Made by a program: the position numbers and the translations under genes. This document shows, piece after piece, positions 25,132 through 44,521 of a DNA stretch of 44,521 nt. A model generated the notes under the pieces. That model made no database searches, was not told the DNA's origin, and worked only from the letters and a program-made list of their open reading frames with translations. The stretch is from a virus. The DNA is taken from IMG/VR virus record IMGVR_UViG_3300032896_000441, positions 1 to 44,521 of that record; one strand, given 5' to 3'. Numbering within the stretch: position 1 is the first letter of the stretch; each line of letters begins with the position of its first letter.

Positions 25132-25867
25132 TTCGCTGCCGGAGTTCGTCGAGCCAGGTCACGCTGCCTCCCTTGCCGGAGCCCTCGCCGTCGGGGGCGT
25201 CGCCACCGCCGCTCGGCATCGGGGTCCTGGTCGTGCCGGCCAGCCCTCGCAGCTGCGACATCGTCATGCGGAGCTCGCGCGCCGCGGTGGCGGTTGCGTT
25301 CGGGTCGCCGCGGTGCTCGTCGACGACGCGGGCGAGGACGAGGGCGGCCGCGGCGAGTGCCGGCGCCGCGGTCCGCAGCCGGTCGACCTCCTCGGCGGTG
25401 GCGGTCTCGATCGGGCCGAGCTGGTCGGTGACGGGCAGCGGGTCGGTCGAGATGATCCGCATGCGCTCCTGCGCGACGTCGACGAGCTGCGCCATCGCCT
25501 TCAGGTCGCCCTTCAACGCCTTGGGCCACAGGACGGTCTGCAGCTTCTCCAGCCGGTCGACCTCCAGCGCCTTCGCTTCGTCCCGAGCCGGCGGCAGGCT
25601 GCCGGCCAGCGCTCGCAGGTACGACGCGTGAGCGGTCGAGACGTCGCGGAAGTTGAGGCGGTCGGCGATGACGTCGAACGGGACGCCGGCGCGGCGCAGT
25701 TCCAGGACGTTGCGATCGCGGGCGGTGACTCGTGGAGCCGCAGCCTTCTTCGCCGGCGCGCGCTTCGTGGTCTTCTTCGCCGCGGTGGCCTTCTTCGCAG
25801 GCGCCTTCTTCGCGGTGCTCTTCTTCGCAGCCGGCTTGGCGGCCGCGCGCTTCTTCGGAGGGGTCAT
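25112..25867 (-). CDS. terS: Terminase small subunit with histone-like basic N-terminus
   Basis: The protein has 251 residues. The first 45 are a Lys/Ala/Pro run with repeated A-K-K motifs, like histone H1 tails. Residues about 48-75 form a helix-turn-helix (RDRNVLELRRAGVPFDVIADRLNF). The rest is helical (oligomerisation), with a disordered Gly-rich end. It recognises packaging DNA and activates TerL. The start ATG 25867 shares its base with the methyltransferase stop (TGATG). The assignment rests on the HTH and its place directly before terL. Confidence 0.8.
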   Translation of the reverse strand: MTPPKKRAAAKPAAKKSTAKKAPAKKATAAKKTTKRAPAKKAAAPRVTARDRNVLELRRAGVPFDVIADRLNFRDVSTAHASYLRALAGSLPPARDEAKALEVDRLEKLQTVLWPKALKGDLKAMAQLVDVAQERMRIISTDPLPVTDQLGPIETATAEEVDRLRTAAPALAAAALVLARVVDEHRGDPNATATAARELRMTMSQLRGLAGTTRTPMPSGGGDAPDGEGSGKGGSVTWLDELRQRSGRRTS

Positions 25868-27213
25868 CAGGCGGCCTCGAGGAACGAGACCGCCTCACCC
25901 GTGGCAGCTCGAACGGGGAGCTCGCCGGTGTGCTGTTCCCACCGACGGCAGATCACGTCGACGTACTTCGGGTCGAGCTCGACGAGCGCGGCGACACGGC
26001 CGGCGTGGTGGCACGCAATGAGCGTCGATCCGGATCCACCGAACGTGTCGAGCACGAGCGCACCCGGGCGGGTGTTGTTCTCGATCGCGCGTCGTACGAG
26101 CTCGACCGGCTTCATGGTGGGGTGCTCGGCCGAGCGAGCGGGCCGCTCGTGCTCCCACACGGTGGACTGCTTGCGACCGCCCTCCCACGTGTGGCCGGCG
26201 CCAGGCTTCCACCCGTACAGCACCGTGCCGTGCTCGTCCTCGAAGTGGGGCGGCACGGCAGGGGTCCCGTCGAGCTGCCAGCCGTAGAAGATCGTCTCGT
26301 GCTGGCCGTGGTAGTCGGCGCGGCCGAGGACGAACCGGTCCTTGACCCAGACGATCTGCTGGCGGAGCGGGAGCCGCGCCTGGTCGAGCGCGAGCCGGAA
26401 CAGGGTCTCCAGCGCCCCCGAGGGCGAGCACACGTAGAAGCTCGCACCCGGCGCGAGGACCTGGGCGGCCGCGGCGAAGGCGCCGTCGAGCAGCTCGCGC
26501 AGCTGCTCGGGCGTCAGGTCGTCGTTCTGGATGGTCAGCTGCTTCGCCGTGCCCCCGCGGTACGAGACGCCGTACGGCGGGTCGGTGAACAGCAGGCCGG
26601 CAGGACGCTCATTGAGCGCCACGCGGACGTCCTCGATCGAGGTCGCGTTGCCGCACACCACCCGGTGCGGGCCGAGCTGCCAGACGTCGCCCTCGATCGA
26701 GATCGGGTCGGCCTCTGGGTAGTCCGGGGCGTCGTCGACGTCGGTCAGCGCCTCGGCCGGTCTGGCGGCCGCCAGGATCTCGGCGACCAGGTCGTCGTCG
26801 TACCCGGTGCCATCGGTGCCGGCGCCGCTCGCCTGCAGGAGCTCGAAGACTTCGGCGAGCACGGCGTCGTCGGTCGATGCCAGGTCGTTCATGCGGTTCT
26901 CGACGAGCAGGATCCGCAGGGCGGCGTCGTCGTCGACGTCGACCCAGAGCACCGGGACCACCGTGGCGCCGCGTGCCTTCGCCGCGGCGAGTCTGTGGTT
27001 CCCGACGAGCACGTGGGTCGTCGAGCGCTGGGCGACGATCGCGCCGAAGAACCCGTTGACGTCAATCGAGCCGGCGATCCCGTCGAGGTCGCCGCGGCGC
27101 GGGTTGCGCGGGTGGGGTCGCAGCTCGTTGACGTCGACGAGCGCGTACTCCTGCTCGAGGAGTACTGCGGCCGAGGCGGCCAGGCCGTCGACGACCCGAG
27201 CGGCGCTGCTCAC
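25867..27213 (-). CDS. ParB-domain / DNA methyltransferase fusion
   Basis: The protein has 448 residues. Residues 24-110 are a ParB/Srx nuclease-like domain (HPRNPRRGD, VLVGNHRLAAAKA). Residues 175-425 are an N6-adenine/N4-cytosine methyltransferase with DPPY (211-214) and the AdoMet loop FGGSGS (391-396). The motif order, catalytic before AdoMet, indicates the beta class. It could modify phage DNA against host restriction or mark packaging sites. It sits between an HNH gene and the terminase genes, all translationally coupled. No cognate restriction enzyme is evident. The target sequence is unknown. Confidence 0.9.
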   Translation of the reverse strand: MSSAARVVDGLAASAAVLLEQEYALVDVNELRPHPRNPRRGDLDGIAGSIDVNGFFGAIVAQRSTTHVLVGNHRLAAAKARGATVVPVLWVDVDDDAALRILLVENRMNDLASTDDAVLAEVFELLQASGAGTDGTGYDDDLVAEILAAARPAEALTDVDDAPDYPEADPISIEGDVWQLGPHRVVCGNATSIEDVRVALNERPAGLLFTDPPYGVSYRGGTAKQLTIQNDDLTPEQLRELLDGAFAAAAQVLAPGASFYVCSPSGALETLFRLALDQARLPLRQQIVWVKDRFVLGRADYHGQHETIFYGWQLDGTPAVPPHFEDEHGTVLYGWKPGAGHTWEGGRKQSTVWEHERPARSAEHPTMKPVELVRRAIENNTRPGALVLDTFGGSGSTLIACHHAGRVAALVELDPKYVDVICRRWEQHTGELPVRAATGEAVSFLEAA

Positions 27214-32872: not shown

Positions 32873-33216
32873 CGACGTCCCCGCTTCGCTCGCGCGACCG
32901 CGAGGTCGAGCACGTTCGTTGGCGCCGGCGGCTCGGGCTTGTCGACCAGCGCGGGCTGGCACGTCGCGGCGTGCGGCATCGCGCGGACCTCGGTCTCGCG
33001 GTCGATCATGTCGTCCTTGCCGAGCGCCCGCGCGTGAGAGCGGCGGGGGTTGATCGCGCGGACGGCGACGTTGCCCTTCGGGTCCTCCAGCGGGTCGAAC
33101 GGCTGCCACTTGCCGCCCGGTCCGCGCTCGGACGCCACCGTGACGGCGAACACGATCGCGGCCTGGCACGTCCGGCACTTCGCCTGCATGCCCGGGACCG
33201 GGCGACGGGCCGTCAC
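32869..33216 (-). CDS. Zinc-ribbon-like protein, paralogue A
   Basis: The protein has 115 residues. The pattern C-x2-C-Q-A-x-I-x-F, then G-G-K-x-x-P-F-D-P, then a late A-M-P-H-x-x-x-C also appears in the 118-residue protein at 38542-38898, so the two seem paralogous. One metal site with three Cys and a His is plausible. GTG 33216 overlaps the ParB-like gene stop (GTGA). Confidence 0.65.
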   Translation of the reverse strand: MTARRPVPGMQAKCRTCQAAIVFAVTVASERGPGGKWQPFDPLEDPKGNVAVRAINPRRSHARALGKDDMIDRETEVRAMPHAATCQPALVDKPEPPAPTNVLDLAVARAKRGRR

Positions 33217-34154
33217 GACCGAGCCTCGATCTTCGAGCGCTCGTCGGAGCGGATGACGTCCTCCCAGCAGCGACCGCAGCCCACTCCCCCGACGCGGCCG
33301 GGCGTGTGCTTGCTGTGGCCCTGCTGCTGGCACAGCTGCGCGACGGCGCGGGCCAGCGGGTGGTGGCTGGTCAGGTGGGCCGCGGACTTCTTCCCCTGAG
33401 CGCCGGGCCGGTGGTGGCCGCCCTGGCGTCGGCCGGCGGTCGTGCCGGCGGCGAGGGTCATGGTGCCCTCGCGGATCCGCTCCTGCTCGGCCGGTGGGAG
33501 GTCGAGGAGCGCGAGCCGGCCCGAGACGTACGGCTGGGACCGCCCGATCTTCGAGCCCAGGGCGGCGTCGGTGAGGCGGTCGCGGGTCTTCAGCCGCTGC
33601 AGCGCGCGGGCCTCCTCGATCGGGTCGAGGTCCTTGCGCTGGCCGTTCTCGATCAGCATCTTCCCGAGGACGTCGTCGGGGTGGACGCCGGCCTTGATCA
33701 GGCACGGGATGTGGGTCCATCCGAGCTTCACCGCGGCCGCGTGGCGGCGGTGCCCGGAGACGATGATCAGCAGGCTCTGGTGGCGGCGTGCGACGACGGG
33801 CTGCACCAGGCCCTCGCGGACCATCGAGTCCATCAGCTCGGCGAGGTCGCCCAGGTCCTCGCGGACGTTCTCCGGGTCGGCCTGCAGGCGCTCGATCGCG
33901 ATCTCGAGGTAGACGTCGCCCTCGTCGGCGTCGTCGACCTCGGAGTCGCGTCGAGCTGCTCGGGCGAGGATGTCCGCGGCGCGGCGCATCGAATCGGGCT
34001 GGGGCCATCCGTGCTGCTCGACGACGCTCTTGACCTGGGCGATGCCGAGGTTGTGGTTCGCGGCGATCGTCGGCAGCGCCTGGTTCGGGTAGCGGGCGTC
34101 CGCGGCCGCGCGGAGGATCGCCGCCTTCACGCCCTTCGGGATGTCACCGGACAC
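33213..34154 (-). CDS. KorB-like ParB partition/regulator protein, paralogue 1
   Basis: The protein has 313 residues. An N-terminal HTH-like helix set (about 1-50) is followed by a ParB N-terminal domain (LLIIVSGHRRHAAAVKLGW, then ENGQRKDLDPIEEA) and an HTH domain (ALGSKIGRSQPYVSGRLALL). The C-terminus has HTPGRVGGVGCGRCWED with two Cys. It shares ENG-x-RKDL-x-PIEEA with the protein at 41468-43042. Such proteins bind CTP and DNA in partition or silencing; here plasmid-like maintenance seems unneeded because int is present. Confidence 0.85.
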   Translation of the reverse strand: MSGDIPKGVKAAILRAAADARYPNQALPTIAANHNLGIAQVKSVVEQHGWPQPDSMRRAADILARAARRDSEVDDADEGDVYLEIAIERLQADPENVREDLGDLAELMDSMVREGLVQPVVARRHQSLLIIVSGHRRHAAAVKLGWTHIPCLIKAGVHPDDVLGKMLIENGQRKDLDPIEEARALQRLKTRDRLTDAALGSKIGRSQPYVSGRLALLDLPPAEQERIREGTMTLAAGTTAGRRQGGHHRPGAQGKKSAAHLTSHHPLARAVAQLCQQQGHSKHTPGRVGGVGCGRCWEDVIRSDERSKIEARS

Positions 34155-34605
34155 GACGCACCTCCAGCCGGACCGCCACCAGCGCTTCGGCGTCGGCCGC
34201 CACGTACACCCGGGCACCGTTGTCGAAGCGGATCATCCGGGGCGTGCCGCCGCGGGTGTCGAGGCGGAACGCGACGATGCGGCCGGCCTCGCTCTGGCCG
34301 TGAGCGTCGAGGATGCCCGTGGCGTCGGCGGCGACCTTCAGCCGGCCGATGATCGGCACCCGGAGAACGTCCATGCCGATCGCCAGCCGGTCGATGGGCA
34401 CCGACCGGGTCGTGAAGTTGCCCATCGTGGGGTTCGCTCGCGCCCAGTCGTCGACCCCCCGGTCGGCGCTAGCGCCGGGTCGGTGGGTGGGGGCGCCGTG
34501 CATCTGGGCGACGCGGCGCCAGTGGCGCGCCCGGCGACGCGCGGCGGTGAGCGCGACGAGCAGGCAGATGATGACGATCGCTCGGAACAAGGGGGTCTCC
34601 TTCAC
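34144..34605 (-). CDS. Membrane-anchored early protein
   Basis: The 153-residue protein has one hydrophobic helix at about 7-21 followed by Arg residues, so it is probably anchored N-out or as a signal anchor with a soluble beta-rich domain (PTMGNFTTRSVPIDRLAIGM, later NGARVYVAADAEALVAVRL). GTG 34605 overlaps the small gene before it, and the end overlaps the ParB-like start by 11 bp. Function unknown. Confidence 0.58.
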   Translation of the reverse strand: MKETPLFRAIVIICLLVALTAARRRARHWRRVAQMHGAPTHRPGASADRGVDDWARANPTMGNFTTRSVPIDRLAIGMDVLRVPIIGRLKVAADATGILDAHGQSEAGRIVAFRLDTRGGTPRMIRFDNGARVYVAADAEALVAVRLEVRRVR

Positions 34606-35431: not shown

Positions 35432-35817
35432 GCTTCGTCACCCGCCCGGAGAGCGGTCTGGACGGCGCGTAGGTCGGCGAGCGCCTTCCCGAGCCCGTCG
35501 GTGTAGCCGTCGCGGTGGCCCTCGCTGTAGCCGAGGCGGAAGGTCGCGCGGGTGCTGGTGCCGCGGCGGCGGGCGGACTGCCAGGCGCGCCGGTAGCGGC
35601 CAGCCATGCGGGCGAGATCGCCGTTGATCTCGTTGATGCTGCGCAGCTGGGTGAGCAGCGAGTCATGATCGGCCATCACGCAGCGCGCGGCCCGGCCCGC
35701 GTCGTTGAGGGCGCCATCGCCGACGCGCAGCTGGTCGACGCGGTCCTGCTCGAGCAGCCAGTCCAGCCACTGCTCAGGGGTGGGCATCGTGCCCTCGGCC
35801 CAGGTTCGGGGCGTCAC
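35428..35817 (-). CDS. Helical early protein of unknown function
   Basis: The protein has 129 residues. It has PTPEQWLDWLLEQDRVDQL near the start, then a long basic helix (MAGRYRRAWQSARRRGTS) and an aromatic-Gly stretch (RLGYSEGHRDGYTDGLG). GTG 35817 is coupled to the upstream stop. Nothing identifies the role. Confidence 0.55.
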   Translation of the reverse strand: MTPRTWAEGTMPTPEQWLDWLLEQDRVDQLRVGDGALNDAGRAARCVMADHDSLLTQLRSINEINGDLARMAGRYRRAWQSARRRGTSTRATFRLGYSEGHRDGYTDGLGKALADLRAVQTALRAGDEA

Positions 35818-36602: not shown

Positions 36603-37000
36603 GGTGCCCCCACGGCGTACTGGCCGTCCCGGGTGAGATAGACGGTTCGGTGGCCGTGGAGCACGACGGGGACCTCCCAGGGGTTGAAGCCGGTACGGAG
36701 CAGCCAGCCGGCGTCGTACGCCGCGGTGCGGTGGGACTCGATGCGTCCGTGGCAGCCGGTGGTGCCGGTGCCGCAGAGCAGGAGCAGGTTCGAGACGTCG
36801 TTGATCCACGTCGTCGACGAGCCGCCCATGCCTCGGGGGCGGCGGTGGTGCTTCGAGGACGGGGCGCCGGCGGACAGGTCGGTCGCGCAGAGCTCGCAGC
36901 GGGCGCCGGCGCGGTGGAACAGGAGCATCTGGGTCTCCTCGCCGGGGCCGGTGCTGGCGCGCTTGGGCCGGCGGGTGGCGCGGCGGCGGTTGAGGGTCAC
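36599..37000 (-). CDS. HNH endonuclease
   Basis: The protein has 133 residues. CELC (34-37) and a later C-G-T-G-T-T-G-C-H give the zinc ligands. HHRRPRGMGG with NLLLLC forms the His-Asn-His catalytic finger. The basic N-terminus (NRRRATRRPKR) may bind DNA. It lies between the DUF3263 gene and a zinc-ribbon gene and overlaps both. It may be a homing-type or recombination nuclease rather than a packaging factor, because a second HNH lies beside terS. Confidence 0.82.
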   Translation of the reverse strand: MTLNRRRATRRPKRASTGPGEETQMLLFHRAGARCELCATDLSAGAPSSKHHRRPRGMGGSSTTWINDVSNLLLLCGTGTTGCHGRIESHRTAAYDAGWLLRTGFNPWEVPVVLHGHRTVYLTRDGQYAVGAP

Positions 37001-37272
37001 GGGAGGAGTCCCTTCGTCGACCGGTGGGCGCGTAGGAGGTCGCGGCGCTCGACGAGGCGGCGCACGGTGGCCGGGTCGTAGGCGTCGGCGGCGGGCAGGC
37101 TGAGGACGTGGTGGAGGACCTGGGCGTGGCGGGTCGGCCCTCGGCCGAAGCGCTCCAGGACCAGTGCGTCGCGGATGCCGGCGAACTTGAACCAGCCGGC
37201 GCGCTCGAAGGCGATCACCTCGGCCTGGCGCACGGACAGGCGGGCGTCGAGCTGGTCGGGGTGCTCGGTCAC
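36997..37272 (-). CDS. DUF3263-like helical protein
   Basis: The protein has 91 residues. The pattern V-I-A-F-E-R-A-x-W-F-K-F-A-G, later R-F-G-x-x-x-T-R-x-x-Q-V-L, then D-P-x-x-V-R-R-L fits DUF3263, a small HTH-like family found in actinobacteria and their phages. GTG 37272 overlaps the initiator gene (GTGA). Its role is probably regulatory or replication-linked by position. Confidence 0.75.
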   Translation of the reverse strand: MTEHPDQLDARLSVRQAEVIAFERAGWFKFAGIRDALVLERFGRGPTRHAQVLHHVLSLPAADAYDPATVRRLVERRDLLRAHRSTKGLLP

Positions 37273-38222
37273 TGGTCACCTCCGCGGCGTCGCTCGTTCG
37301 CCTCGCCGGCGCAGTCGATGCAGGTCCCGTCGCTCTTCAGCTGCCGCCAGGCGTGCTCGGGGCACATGGCCGCCTTGGTTCGGACGACGGCGAGGCGCCG
37401 GCCGGGCGGCGGCATGGCTTCCCAGCCGGCGAGGAAGGCCTGGGCGAACACGGGCGGGGTGGCCCGGCAGGTCAGCACGGCGTGGTCGACAAGCGCGTCG
37501 TCGCCGTGGAGCTCGATGAGCGCCTCGATGCGGGCGGTCTTCTCGGCGCCGAGGGAGTCCCAGCGCAGACCGCGCAGCGGGGCGTGCTGGTTGACCTTCG
37601 AGGCGAGGATCGCGACCGGGCCGGAGGCCACGGTCTGCGGCTCCTGGTCGACGGCGATCGCGGCCGCTGCTGCTGCAGTAGTTGTAGTTCTTGTCTGAGT
37701 GCTTGCCACCTGTCCGCGTGGCGTGTCAGACGACTCGGGCGATCGTGTGACAGATCCGGGCGGGACGGTGTCAGACGGTCGCGGGAGGTCGTTTGCCACC
37801 GCGAGCGGGCGCGTGTCAGACGACTCGGGCGATCGTGTGACAGATCCCCCCGTGTCCGTGTCAGGCGATCCGGGGTGGTCGTCTGACAGGTCCAGCGGGG
37901 CCGTGTCAGACGACTCTTCGGTCAGCTGGCCCGGGAGGAACAGTCGGTAGCGGGCACGACGACCCCGCTGGCCGTCGCGGCCAGGGCGGGTCGGCTTCAC
38001 GACCTGGGCAATCCAGCCGGCCTCGACGAGGGATTCCAGGCGCCGCCACACCGTGCGGGTGGAGACGGCCCGGTCGGACGCCAGCGCCTGCTCGTTGATC
38101 ACGACGTTGAGCCCGGAGGCACCGTCGGAGTCGAGGGAGACGCGTAGCGCCCACCAGCGCAGGTCCTCGGTCATGTCGGCGACCAGGACGGCGCGCTGCC
38201 AGTCGAAGAGGTTCACGACCAC
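37269..38222 (-). CDS. Replication initiator, lambda-O-like, with iterons in its gene
   Basis: The protein has 317 residues. The first 95 form a winged HTH (NEQALASDRAVSTRTVWRRLESLVEAGWI). Residues about 105-175 are a Ser/Asp/Thr/Pro linker of five 15-residue repeats, each with an SDT or PDT core. The C-terminal 130 residues are helical, ending with a Cys cluster (CPEHAW...CIDC). The linker DNA is the iteron array, as in lambda O, where the N-terminal domain binds iterons inside its own gene and the C-terminal part recruits helicase. I chose GTG 38222; GTG 38216 is also possible. Confidence 0.78.
   Translation of the reverse strand: MVVNLFDWQRAVLVADMTEDLRWWALRVSLDSDGASGLNVVINEQALASDRAVSTRTVWRRLESLVEAGWIAQVVKPTRPGRDGQRGRRARYRLFLPGQLTEESSDTAPLDLSDDHPGSPDTDTGGSVTRSPESSDTRPLAVANDLPRPSDTVPPGSVTRSPESSDTPRGQVASTQTRTTTTAAAAAAIAVDQEPQTVASGPVAILASKVNQHAPLRGLRWDSLGAEKTARIEALIELHGDDALVDHAVLTCRATPPVFAQAFLAGWEAMPPPGRRLAVVRTKAAMCPEHAWRQLKSDGTCIDCAGEANERRRGGDQ
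37671..37705. other. AT-richer stretch beside the iterons, candidate unwinding element
   Basis: This 35-base stretch (TGCAGTAGTTGTAGTTCTTG core) has 16 G/C of 35 (about 46%), far below the surroundings. It lies just downstream of the iterons in the direction of the initiator gene, the same relative place as the AT-rich region of the lambda origin. Unwinding is inferred. Confidence 0.5.
37723..37912. repeat. Iteron array, 5 units at exact 45-bp period (origin candidate)
   Basis: GTGTCAGACG-type units start at 37723, 37768, 37813, 37858 and 37903, each 45 bp apart. Four are identical and one (37858) has a single change. Inverted TGACA half-sites lie between some (37745, 37835), and a perfect inverted TGTCAGAC copy occurs at 37881. 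A 37-base segment repeats exactly at 37721-37757 and 37811-37847. All lie within the initiator linker, in frame (45 bp is 15 codons). Confidence 0.82.
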
Positions 38223-38230
38223 CCGAGTCC

Positions 38231-38545
38231 CTACTTGGCCGCTTCGAGGAGCTCGTGCAGCCGAGCGTGGAACGTGAGGGCCATGCCCGCGTCGAACCGG
38301 ACGAGGGTGTTCATGACGTGGGCGCACAGCTGCGCCGCCCCGTCGGCGTCGACCAGGTAGATCACGTCCAAGCGACCGTCCTGGTGCAGCAGCGGCCCCT
38401 CCAGCTCGACCGCGAGGAGCGGCCCGGAACCGCGGCCCTCCACGCCTGCAGCCTGGACGTGCTGCAGCGCGGCTCCGCCGTCGGTGTCGACGACGACCGG
38501 TCCCGGCTGGCCGTGCTCTCTGAAGGGGTCGCTGATGATCTTCAC
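38231..38545 (-). CDS. Early protein of unknown function
   Basis: The 104-residue protein begins with GTG 38545 (GTGA coupling) and ends eight bases before the initiator start. It is beta-rich in the first half (GPVVVDTDGGAALQHV, GPLLAVELEGPLLHQDGRLDVIYLVDADG), with a helical end. Its place directly before the initiator is suggestive of a replication accessory, but no family was recognised. Confidence 0.58.
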   Translation of the reverse strand: MKIISDPFREHGQPGPVVVDTDGGAALQHVQAAGVEGRGSGPLLAVELEGPLLHQDGRLDVIYLVDADGAAQLCAHVMNTLVRFDAGMALTFHARLHELLEAAK

Positions 38546-38898
38546 GGGCGCTGGGTCTCCCTCTCGGTGTGCTTCGCCGCGACGTGGTCGAGGCACTGGT
38601 GGACGCGGTGCCACGGCATCGCCATGACCTCGTCGCGGGCGTCGTCGGTGGTCCAGCCGGGCCGGGCGGACTCCAGTTCGGCGATCAGCTCGTCGGGGTC
38701 CCAGGCAGTGCGGCCCGACACCGGCAGCGCCGGCACGAGCGGCTGAAGCCGGTCCTCGTCACGGACCGGGATGGGATCGAACGGTCGGGCGCGTCCAGGC
38801 TTGCCGTCGCGGCCGCGGACCCAGAAGAACGAGATCCGGGCCTGGCAGTGCTGGCAGCGCGGCAGGGGCCGCGGCCGCGGGCGGGTACGGCGCGGCAT
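38542..38898 (-). CDS. Zinc-ribbon-like protein, paralogue B
   Basis: The 118-residue protein shares C-x2-C-Q-A-x-I-x-F, R-P-F-D-P and a late A-M-P-x-H-x-x-x-x-C with the protein at 32869-33216. The basic, Pro/Arg-rich N-terminus (RRTRPRPRPLPR) could bind nucleic acid. ATG 38898 shares a base with the upstream stop (TGATG). Function unknown. Confidence 0.65.
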   Translation of the reverse strand: MPRRTRPRPRPLPRCQHCQARISFFWVRGRDGKPGRARPFDPIPVRDEDRLQPLVPALPVSGRTAWDPDELIAELESARPGWTTDDARDEVMAMPWHRVHQCLDHVAAKHTERETQRP

Positions 38899-41316: not shown

Positions 41317-41471
41317 CGCTCGCCACCTCCCAGCACGAGTCGCAGGAGGGCGAGGCCGAACTTGCTCCGGCCGAAGCGGCTGTTGGGCCGATCCGCAGCG
41401 GCGAACGCGCCGATGGCGATCCACAGGAGCGCCAGCAGGATCGCCCAGAAGATCCACGCGTCGTCGGTCAT
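41313..41471 (-). CDS. 52-residue single-pass membrane protein
   Basis: ATG 41471 overlaps the ParB-like stop (ATGA), and the TGA overlaps the next start (GTGA). Residues 5-25 (AWIFWAILLALLWIAIGAF) form one membrane helix, followed by a basic Arg/Lys-rich tail that should face the cytoplasm. Possible roles are membrane anchoring or exclusion. Confidence 0.6.
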   Translation of the reverse strand: MTDDAWIFWAILLALLWIAIGAFAAADRPNSRFGRSKFGLALLRLVLGGGER

Positions 41472-43042
41472 GACTTCGCCTCACCGGACTCGTCGTCGAC
41501 GAGGTGGATCGCGGAGTCGGCCGGCTGGTCGCAGTCGGTGCAGGCGTACTCGGGGTCGCCGGCGAACGGGTGCGGGTCGAAGGTCGGGTCGTCGGGCGTG
41601 GCGGTCTCGGCCTGGTCCGTGCTCGACGGCTCGGGGTCGTCGATGGAGGCCTGGCCGAGCAGATCCTGGTCGTCGTCGGTGAGGGTGTGGCCCTGACGCT
41701 CGGCGAGGGTGATGTAGGCGCGCACGAGCTCGGCGTTCAACTGGTTCCAGGTGTAGTGGTTGTGGCCGCTGCGGACCGAGGCGACCTGTCGGTCTTCGAT
41801 CCCCACGGCGAGCACGACGACAAGGGTGCGGAGCAGCTCGGGTCCGGAGGCGTCGGCCAGCTCCGCGACGTGGTGGCGGAACAGCTGAAGGTCGGCGTCC
41901 TTGCGGGAGTACTCCCACCGCTCCCACCGGTTGGGCTCCGGGGTGTCGGTGAGGTCGAAGTACTGCGCGAGGCGCCCCTGCTCCAGGTTGCTGATGAGGG
42001 ACGGCAAGAGGTTGCGGAGCAGGTCGACGAGGACCTTGTCGACCTTCATGCCGGGCTTGATGGCTTCGGCCAGCGAGCGGACGCGGAGGCGGCGCGCGAC
42101 CTCGATCGCCTCCTGCCGAGCCTCGCGCTCGGCGGCGGCCCGTTCGGCTCGGGCGCGGTCGGCGACCGCGGCCTCGTCTCGCTCCTCGTCGGTGTGCGTC
42201 TCGGGTGCGGTGCAGACGAGGATGACCGCGCTGTTGTAGATGCCCCACTCCAGGATCGCGGCGAGGCAGTCCTTGTGACCCTCGCGGTCGGTGACGCCGG
42301 TGTGAGCGAGCCGGGCGACCTTGTGCTTCTCGATGTCGACGTGGATCTCGCCGGTGGACTCCAGGACCGTCACATCGGGGTAGTCCGTCGCGGCCCGCTT
42401 CTCGGCCGCGAGGCGGTTCTTACGGCGGCCCTTGGCGTACTCCAGCTCGTACCTGAGGTTGCCGCTGCCCGCGGCCTTCTCGAGCTTCTTCGTCGTGGCG
42501 GGGTCGTCGGCGAAGGAGGCGATCGCCAGGGCGTCGTCGAGGGTGAGGTCGCCGGCGTGGACCTTGGTCTGGGTGGTCTTGGCGAGCTTCAGCAGCCGCC
42601 GCCGGGCGGTGACGGTCTTCGGGTCGACCCCGACGATCTCGGCGATCTCCTTGACCTTGCGTCCGAACAGCGCGAGCTGCTCGTAGCCCTCGGCCTCCTC
42701 GATGGGAGACAGGTCCTTGCGGCGGCCGTTCTCGACGAGCATCGCCTCGACCTGCGAGGCCTCGTCGACCAGGTCGGTGCGGACGATCGCGGGCACCACC
42801 TTCAGCCGCGCCTTCTTGGCGCCGGCGAGTCGGCGGTGCCCCGCGATGAGCACGTAGGTGTCGTCGCCAGCGGTGTGCGGGGCGACGATGAGCGGCTGGA
42901 GGATGCCGGAGGCCTTGATCGACGCGACGAGCTCGTCGTCGGCGACGGCCTTGCGGCGGACGTTCTTCGGGTGCGGGACAACGAGCGTGAGGTCGAGCTC
43001 GTGCTCGTACGTCGATGTCGTGGTCTCGGTGGTGGTGCTCAT
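41468..43042 (-). CDS. Large KorB-like ParB protein, paralogue 2
   Basis: The protein has 524 residues. The ParB N-terminal domain (VPHPKNVRRKAVADDELVAS, YVLIAGHRRLAGAKKA) is followed by ENGRRKDLSPIEEAEGYEQL and an HTH (KVKEIAEIVGVDPKTVTARRRLL). A long charged coiled coil lies at about 285-320. The C-terminal part ends with a C-x2-C pair. ATG 43042 has GAGGTCACAC upstream. It is the largest early protein and could silence host or phage promoters, or act in replication. The link to partition is only by family. Confidence 0.85.
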   Translation of the reverse strand: MSTTTETTTSTYEHELDLTLVVPHPKNVRRKAVADDELVASIKASGILQPLIVAPHTAGDDTYVLIAGHRRLAGAKKARLKVVPAIVRTDLVDEASQVEAMLVENGRRKDLSPIEEAEGYEQLALFGRKVKEIAEIVGVDPKTVTARRRLLKLAKTTQTKVHAGDLTLDDALAIASFADDPATTKKLEKAAGSGNLRYELEYAKGRRKNRLAAEKRAATDYPDVTVLESTGEIHVDIEKHKVARLAHTGVTDREGHKDCLAAILEWGIYNSAVILVCTAPETHTDEERDEAAVADRARAERAAAEREARQEAIEVARRLRVRSLAEAIKPGMKVDKVLVDLLRNLLPSLISNLEQGRLAQYFDLTDTPEPNRWERWEYSRKDADLQLFRHHVAELADASGPELLRTLVVVLAVGIEDRQVASVRSGHNHYTWNQLNAELVRAYITLAERQGHTLTDDDQDLLGQASIDDPEPSSTDQAETATPDDPTFDPHPFAGDPEYACTDCDQPADSAIHLVDDESGEAKS

Positions 43043-43082
43043 GTGTGACCTCGGTTCTCTCGGTGGGTGAGGGCTGGGGACC

Positions 43083-44106: not shown

Positions 44107-44144
44107 GCACATCGGCCCTGGCGTGGCACACCCATTCCTAGGTA

Positions 44145-44175
44145 TTGACAGGTTTGAGCAGGTTTTGGGTAGGGT
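44145..44175 (+). promoter_or_regulatory. Repressor promoter (candidate)
   Basis: TTGACA (44145-44150), a 19-bp spacer and TAGGGT (44170-44175) precede ATG 44183 by seven bases. The spacer is slightly long. CAGGTTT direct repeats overlap it, so it is probably autoregulated. Confidence 0.72.
44149..44165. repeat. Two CAGGTTT direct repeats, one helical turn apart
   Basis: CAGGTTT occurs at 44149-44155 and 44159-44165, starting exactly 10 bp apart, across the repressor promoter spacer. Such phased repeats fit a repressor or Xis binding site. Confidence 0.5.
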
Positions 44176-44182
44176 CGGGCGT

Positions 44183-44521
44183 ATGACCAGTGACGTAGTG
44201 GGCGCAGAGCCCACCCCGTACATCCCCGAGTTCCTCTTCGGCGACAAGGTGCGCAAGATCCGCCGCGACGCCGGCGAGAGCCAGGGGACGATGGCCCAGA
44301 AGCTTCAGGTCAGCTCGGCGACCGTCGCTGCCTGGGAGACCAGCATCAACATGCCGCGGAACGCGGTCTCGATCGCTCAGAGGATCGAACTGGCCTACGG
44401 AGTGCCCGCCTGGTGGCTACTCGGGCTGCAAATGCCGACCGCCCCCAGGCCCGGTGGGCCTGAGGGCGGTGCGACTGCTGGGCTCCCCCGGTTGGACTCG
44501 AACCAACAACCCTCCGGTTAA
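44183..44521 (+). CDS. XRE-family repressor-like protein whose gene end is the att core
   Basis: The protein has 112 residues. Residues 19-81 form an XRE HTH (VRKIRRDAGESQGTMAQKLQVS, then SSATVAAWETSINMPR, ending GVPAWWLLG), as in phage immunity repressors. There is no dimer or cleavage domain. Residues 86-112 are encoded by a hairpin and by the tRNA 3' half, so they are not likely to be a folded domain. ATG 44183 is seven bases after the -10, giving a leaderless mRNA. The stop TAA lies in the tRNA anticodon loop. It is divergent from the xis-like gene. Confidence 0.82.
   Translation: MTSDVVGAEPTPYIPEFLFGDKVRKIRRDAGESQGTMAQKLQVSSATVAAWETSINMPRNAVSIAQRIELAYGVPAWWLLGLQMPTAPRPGGPEGGATAGLPRLDSNQQPSG
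44438..44470. terminator. Hairpin inside the repressor reading frame, next to the tRNA
   Basis: Two 7-bp stem segments (ACCGCCC with GGGCGGT, CAGGCCC with GGGCCTG) separated by one C-A mismatch enclose a GGT loop. The hairpin lies ten bases beyond the tRNA 3' end as read on the minus strand, so it could end the tRNA transcript after integration as well as the repressor transcript. Confidence 0.65.
44481..44521 (-). tRNA. Partial tRNA 3' half (anticodon NUU, probably Asn), attachment core
   Basis: On the minus strand the sequence gives the end of the anticodon loop (UUAA), stem CCGGA, variable loop GGGUU, T arm GUUGG-UUCGAGU-CCAAC, acceptor CGGGGGA and discriminator G. The anticodon must end in UU, so Asn or Lys; the G discriminator favours Asn. 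The 5' half lies outside the window. In a phage this 3' half is the attP core that rebuilds the host tRNA after integration. Confidence 0.82.

Follow-up and report, generated by a model that had tools for sequence, protein, structure and literature searches.

To our knowledge, actinobacterial phages and integrating elements with a mapped replication origin are few. At the origin of iteron plasmids, an AT-rich region that is unwound lies next to repeated sites to which a winged-helix initiator binds; these iterons are usually direct repeats located outside the coding sequence of the initiator. In lambda and in Stx phages, ori-lambda lies within the initiator gene O, whose central part holds the iterons and, directly after them, an AT-rich element (PMC7466680). 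The lambda-type O initiator acts as dimers, and the number of repeats alters the length of the protein, the two extra iterons of Stx phages adding 13 residues to O (PMC7466680). For the RepA-type extrachromosomal mycobacterial prophages, the authors suggested that the origin may be located in repA or immediately ahead of it, a placement like that in lambda, and no repeats were identified (PMC7157519). A survey of actinobacterial integrating elements deals with other replication proteins and does not contain the word iteron (PMC3218068).

The locus described here belongs to a virus record of 44.5 kb with a GC content of 71%, which was analysed over its whole length (44,521 nucleotides, hereafter the window). 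It resembles the O gene of lambda and Stx phages in having intragenic repeats in the middle of the gene followed by an AT-rich element. Unlike lambda O, the window protein has no match to the Pfam family Phage_rep_O, the sequence of the sites is unrelated and the C-terminal domain is different; no P-like loader was recognised, the gene downstream of the initiator being DUF3263/NapA-like and most small genes having no assigned function. Lambda and Stx phages carry four to six iterons, whereas the window carries nine short sites, strictly alternating in orientation and 20–25 bp apart. Compared with iteron plasmid origins, the sites are intragenic and alternating. Like the RepA prophages, this is an actinobacterial temperate phage with an HTH initiator, but here the repeats, their phasing and their conservation at the DNA level are explicit.

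The window contains a contractile-tail gene set (sheath, baseplate, terminase, head protease, and major head protein), with an integrase at its left end and an HTH gene at its right end. The latter (44123–44521) runs out in a peptide ending in LDSNQQPSG, which we take to be the kind of ending often read from the 3' end of a tRNA, so that the record may, as a guess, end at an attachment site. Genes with a ParB-like N-terminal domain were observed at 25867–27213, 33213–34217, and 41468–43048, one of them fused to a DNA methyltransferase.

The longest in-frame ORF covering the putative initiator gene extends over 37269–38327. We set the start at the internal GTG listed in Table 1 because similarity to the homologue L037 begins only there. 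The protein matched no Pfam family at E 0.01 in a Pfam scan, Phage_rep_O (PF04492) included, which places it outside the lambda O family as defined by Pfam. HTH_36 (PF13730) left the window protein itself unmatched and was above the cut-off in 6 of the 10 N-terminal relatives scanned. Matches to PHROG 391 and 8540, annotated as “replication initiation O-like,” were weak (E 2.2e-4 and 2e-3), and 10 of 14 unrelated control genomes likewise give hits to the phrog_391 profile. A profile search of solved structures likewise returned weak matches, the best one (E 0.005) being a hypothetical transcriptional regulator. The single-sequence AlphaFold model of the N-terminus was of low confidence (pLDDT 65) and uninformative, and a PDB search with this model gave nothing usable.

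The C-terminal domain shows a C-x2-H...C-x2-C-like pattern in several of its members. It is joined to other N-termini in L039–L043 and in Rhodococcus phage REQ2, indicating that the protein is modular. The REQ2 protein gp37, annotated as an HTH protein, shares this domain (39% identity over 83 residues) and has its lowest-GC segment in the linker, as in the window; its N-terminal domain is different and no comparable array was found in it. DnaA domain IV-like proteins (L048:7128–8024 and L043) are encoded upstream of the C-terminal-domain relatives L041 and L043, which hints at a link to replication. The product of the neighbouring DUF3263 gene weakly resembles NapA, a nucleoid-associated protein of mycobacteria.

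Between the two domains, inside the gene, we found an array of nine 11-bp sites with at most two mismatches (37723–37913), whose consensus reads TCGTCTGACAC on the coding strand and GTGTCAGACGA on the plus strand. Their orientation alternates strictly, with steps of 20, 25, 21, 24, 20, 25, 21, and 24 bp. When one mismatch is allowed, GTGTCAGACGA occurs six times in the 44.5-kb window, each time inside the array. Tandem Repeats Finder called it with periods of 90 and 45 and a score of 259, far above that of the other arrays in the window. The initial annotation had reported five GTGTCAGACG-type units at exactly 45-bp spacing, encoding five SDT repeats. These five units are real and their spacing is exact (sites 1, 3, 5, 7, and 9 in Table 1), but they represent one orientation of the array and about half of the sites, the four inverted ones between them not having been counted. 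The units read SSDT, SPDT, SSDT, PSDT, and SSDT, so that one of the five has PDT instead of SDT. Nine alternating sites describe the array better than five 45-bp units do. Since the inverted sites occur in two codon phases and are read as different peptides (LSDD and SVTR), they do not correspond to one repeated peptide.

Table 1. Coordinates of the putative initiator gene, its parts and the sites in its linker (positions in the window).
Feature	Position	Strand	Remarks
Initiator gene	37269–38219	minus	316 aa, GTG start at 38219; from the ORF list; L037 aligns from residue 2
N-terminal winged-helix-like domain, residues ~1–98	37926–38219	minus	Relatives match HTH_36 (PF13730) above cut-off
Site 9	37903–37913	+	Kept in L037
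Site 8, inverted	37879–37889	-	Kept in L037
Site 7	37858–37868	+	Kept in L037
Site 6, inverted	37833–37843	-	Kept in L037
Site 5	37813–37823	+	Kept in L037
Site 4, inverted	37789–37799	-	Kept in L037
Site 3	37768–37778	+	Kept in L037
Site 2, inverted	37743–37753	-	Kept in L037
Site 1, GTGTCAGACGA	37723–37733	+	
AT-rich stretch, candidate unwinding element	37671–37712		GC minimum, rare codons, kept in L037
C-terminal domain, conserved C-x2-H and C-x2-C	37272–37640	minus	Common to relatives with other N-termini and REQ2 gp37
DUF3263 gene, next gene downstream of the initiator	36997–37272	minus	Present in L037 too

The AT-richer stretch that had been noticed beyond the repeats directly adjoins the array. 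At 37671–37700 its GC content falls to 0.43 (record mean 0.71), which ties for the lowest value of any 30-bp window in the record, and at the same place L037 has a GC content of 0.39 over 36 bp. The codons of this stretch include six threonine ACA or ACT and one AGA; phage-wide, codons ending in A or T make up 4.2% of threonine codons and AGA 1.8% of arginine codons. At its inner edge, the stretch also contains a degenerate but conserved element that reads TGGCA.GCA.TCAGACA on the coding strand. On the strand opposite to the gene, positions 37671–37700 read TAGTTGTAGTTC, loosely like DnaA-trio repeats, a triplet pattern that could come from the threonine codons alone.

The homologue L037 was reached from the major head protein, through a related Actinomycetota MAG and a search of its genome. 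It is a full-length match to the putative initiator (59% identical, E 3e-96) and the sole close homologue found. The gene order is also kept, with a homologue of the gene at 38898 upstream and the DUF3263 gene, an HNH gene and the gene at 35814 downstream of the initiator. Phage, plasmid, viral and genome collections searched with DNA or with single proteins yielded no direct relative except the C-terminal domain of REQ2, and a pattern scan of viral contigs for paired sites gave no match. Two contigs matched by a conserved 20-mer (L078 and L079) were discarded as chance hits, having neither an array nor a related gene.

The alignment of the two linkers is gapless and the nine sites correspond one to one, with an offset of three bases throughout. 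Third codon positions agree at 29 of 29 positions inside the sites and at 37% of the 35 positions between them; the base identity is 83% inside and 46% between sites, and the amino-acid identity across the array region is 49%. The third positions being fixed in the sites while the spacers and the protein diverge, selection acts on the DNA rather than on the protein. Tandem Repeats Finder detected no tandem repeat in L037, and the array is thus not a recent duplication. The initial annotation had proposed to align homologues, and its reading would have been refuted by homologues that kept the linker and lost the DNA period; they show the opposite, with DNA sites conserved beyond the protein in L037.

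We also rewrote the linker synonymously at the codon frequencies of the phage itself (4000 trials). The recoded linkers contained on average 2.3 sites and at most 6 (9 observed), and at most 1 exact site (3 observed). Since recoding never produced nine sites, the array exceeds what the protein requires. Permuting the synonymous codons within the linker gave a mean of 5.0 sites and reached nine, but this test is milder because the rare codons of the linker are retained.

A profile of the N-terminal domain gave 26 matches in 24 of the 299 genomes of one actinobacterial order. For an array to be scored as significant, the 350 bp following the domain had to hold more direct 9-mer repeats than any of 200 dinucleotide shuffles. 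Such an array directly follows the N-terminal domain in 16 of 23 usable loci, whereas 5 of 115 control windows taken from these loci contain one. The layout, noticed first in a single actinophage, is common among related initiator-like genes of Actinomycetota. The motifs vary between elements, and steps of 21–24 and 44–46 bp recur. The repeat distances fit a period of about 11 bp (mean resultant 0.52, reached by none of 5000 random sets, a p-value that is optimistic because distances within one array are not independent). For 12 of 14 arrays, the lowest-GC 36-mer of the 450-bp region begins no more than 50 bp past the array (binomial 9e-10); for the other two it lies inside the array. The effective number is slightly smaller, given the homology between L037 and the window and the motif common to L056 and L057. 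The reading frame of L038 runs into a stop behind the first unit, while its array continues with steps of 45–46, 45, 45, 22, and 22 bp; a recent nonsense change is possible, the frame being open again after this single stop. A tyrosine integrase gene is located close to three relatives, as expected for mobile elements, and no terminase was found on the same contig as any relative.

Other repeats were observed in contigs collected through the ParB-like proteins. A k-mer count over the ParB relatives, dominated by base composition, showed an intragenic CCCGTCACGA-type array (L006:2847–3752, minus strand) in the gene directly upstream of a DnaB-like helicase gene on a phage contig; this array may be an intragenic origin of a second kind. 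On a viral contig related by ParB, an 18-bp unit is repeated in tandem at least 19 times (L008:3377–3710).

From these comparisons, we consider it probable (roughly 80%) that the linker of the initiator gene corresponds to the replication origin of the phage. With sites lying within the coding sequence between two domains and an AT-rich element directly beside them, the locus fits a lambda-type intragenic origin in which the iterons would be bound by the encoded initiator. The N-terminal winged helix would bind the nine 11-bp sites, since the arrays track the winged-helix domain and not ParB, and it would probably do so as dimers across inverted neighbours. Neighbouring sites are about 22.5 bp apart, or two helical turns, which would place them on roughly one face of the DNA. 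The protein–DNA complex would open the adjoining AT-rich stretch, and the C-terminal domain may then bring in the host replisome, possibly by recruiting the helicase; the genes scanned yielded no recognisable phage helicase, loader or primase. The idea of an origin in the initiator linker following the logic of lambda, already put forward from the sequence of the window, is thus well supported by the comparative evidence, except that the inversion of GC skew looked for at the array is lacking. The suggestion that this arrangement is convergent with lambda was not established, as both proteins look winged-helix and the PHROG O-like matches are weak (E 2e-4) and unspecific.

Three other explanations of the array were considered. 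It could represent regulatory sites through which the winged-helix protein, or another regulator of the phage, controls the transcription of early genes. The sites are indeed alternating and operator-like, and autoregulation is frequent among HTH proteins. However, they lie far inside the reading frame, past the start codon, nine phased sites would be an unusually large set for an operator, and the lowest-GC segment is regularly on the far side of the array, which suits an origin and not a promoter; we thus regard this explanation as unlikely. That the repeats are simply a low-complexity protein linker, perhaps produced by slippage of a 90-bp unit and without a role at the DNA level, would agree with the duplication of such a unit at 80% identity, with the suitability of SDT repeats for a flexible linker and with the nine sites reached by codon permutation. 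It is barely tenable in view of the 29 of 29 third positions shared with L037 while protein and spacers diverge, of the two codon phases of the inverted sites, of the 22- and 23-bp steps that break the frame in relatives and of the L038 array that outlasts its frame.

The ParB-like genes of the phage, three in number, raise the possibility that the array is a parS-like centromere for their products, which appears highly improbable. No ParB_N gene is located near the array in 12 array-bearing relatives, the ParB_N matches in those genomes (one each in eleven, two in G730) lying on a different contig or at a distance above 100 kb, while L046, L048, and L050 carry the ParB of this phage without the motif. 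The site does not therefore travel with the ParB gene, and we rejected the partition site as a candidate. In addition, the sites form no compact palindromes and no ParA was recognised in the genes scanned.

Returning to the origin, the lambda-type layout has long been known. The actinobacterial class, the phased alternating array and its spread look new within the literature searched: our search, most subscription papers being outside its reach, found no description of helically phased arrays in actinobacterial initiator linkers. We lean toward the view that mobile elements across Actinomycetota share self-contained replicon genes, in which a winged-helix domain would be followed in frame by a helically phased (~22.5 bp) array of the sites that it binds and by an unwinding element. 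The sites and the DNA-binding domain would change together, the DNA-binding domains would swap between C-terminal parts, and the DNA element could outlive its frame. If this is true, such origins could be recognised from sequence alone by searching directly behind winged-helix domains for phased repeats that end in an AT-rich stretch. In the same step, the motif bound by each initiator would become known, and many testable initiator–site pairs would follow, as well as small replicons for actinobacterial genetics. In these genes, a single stretch of sequence would plainly serve both as a DNA element and as the code for a protein linker.
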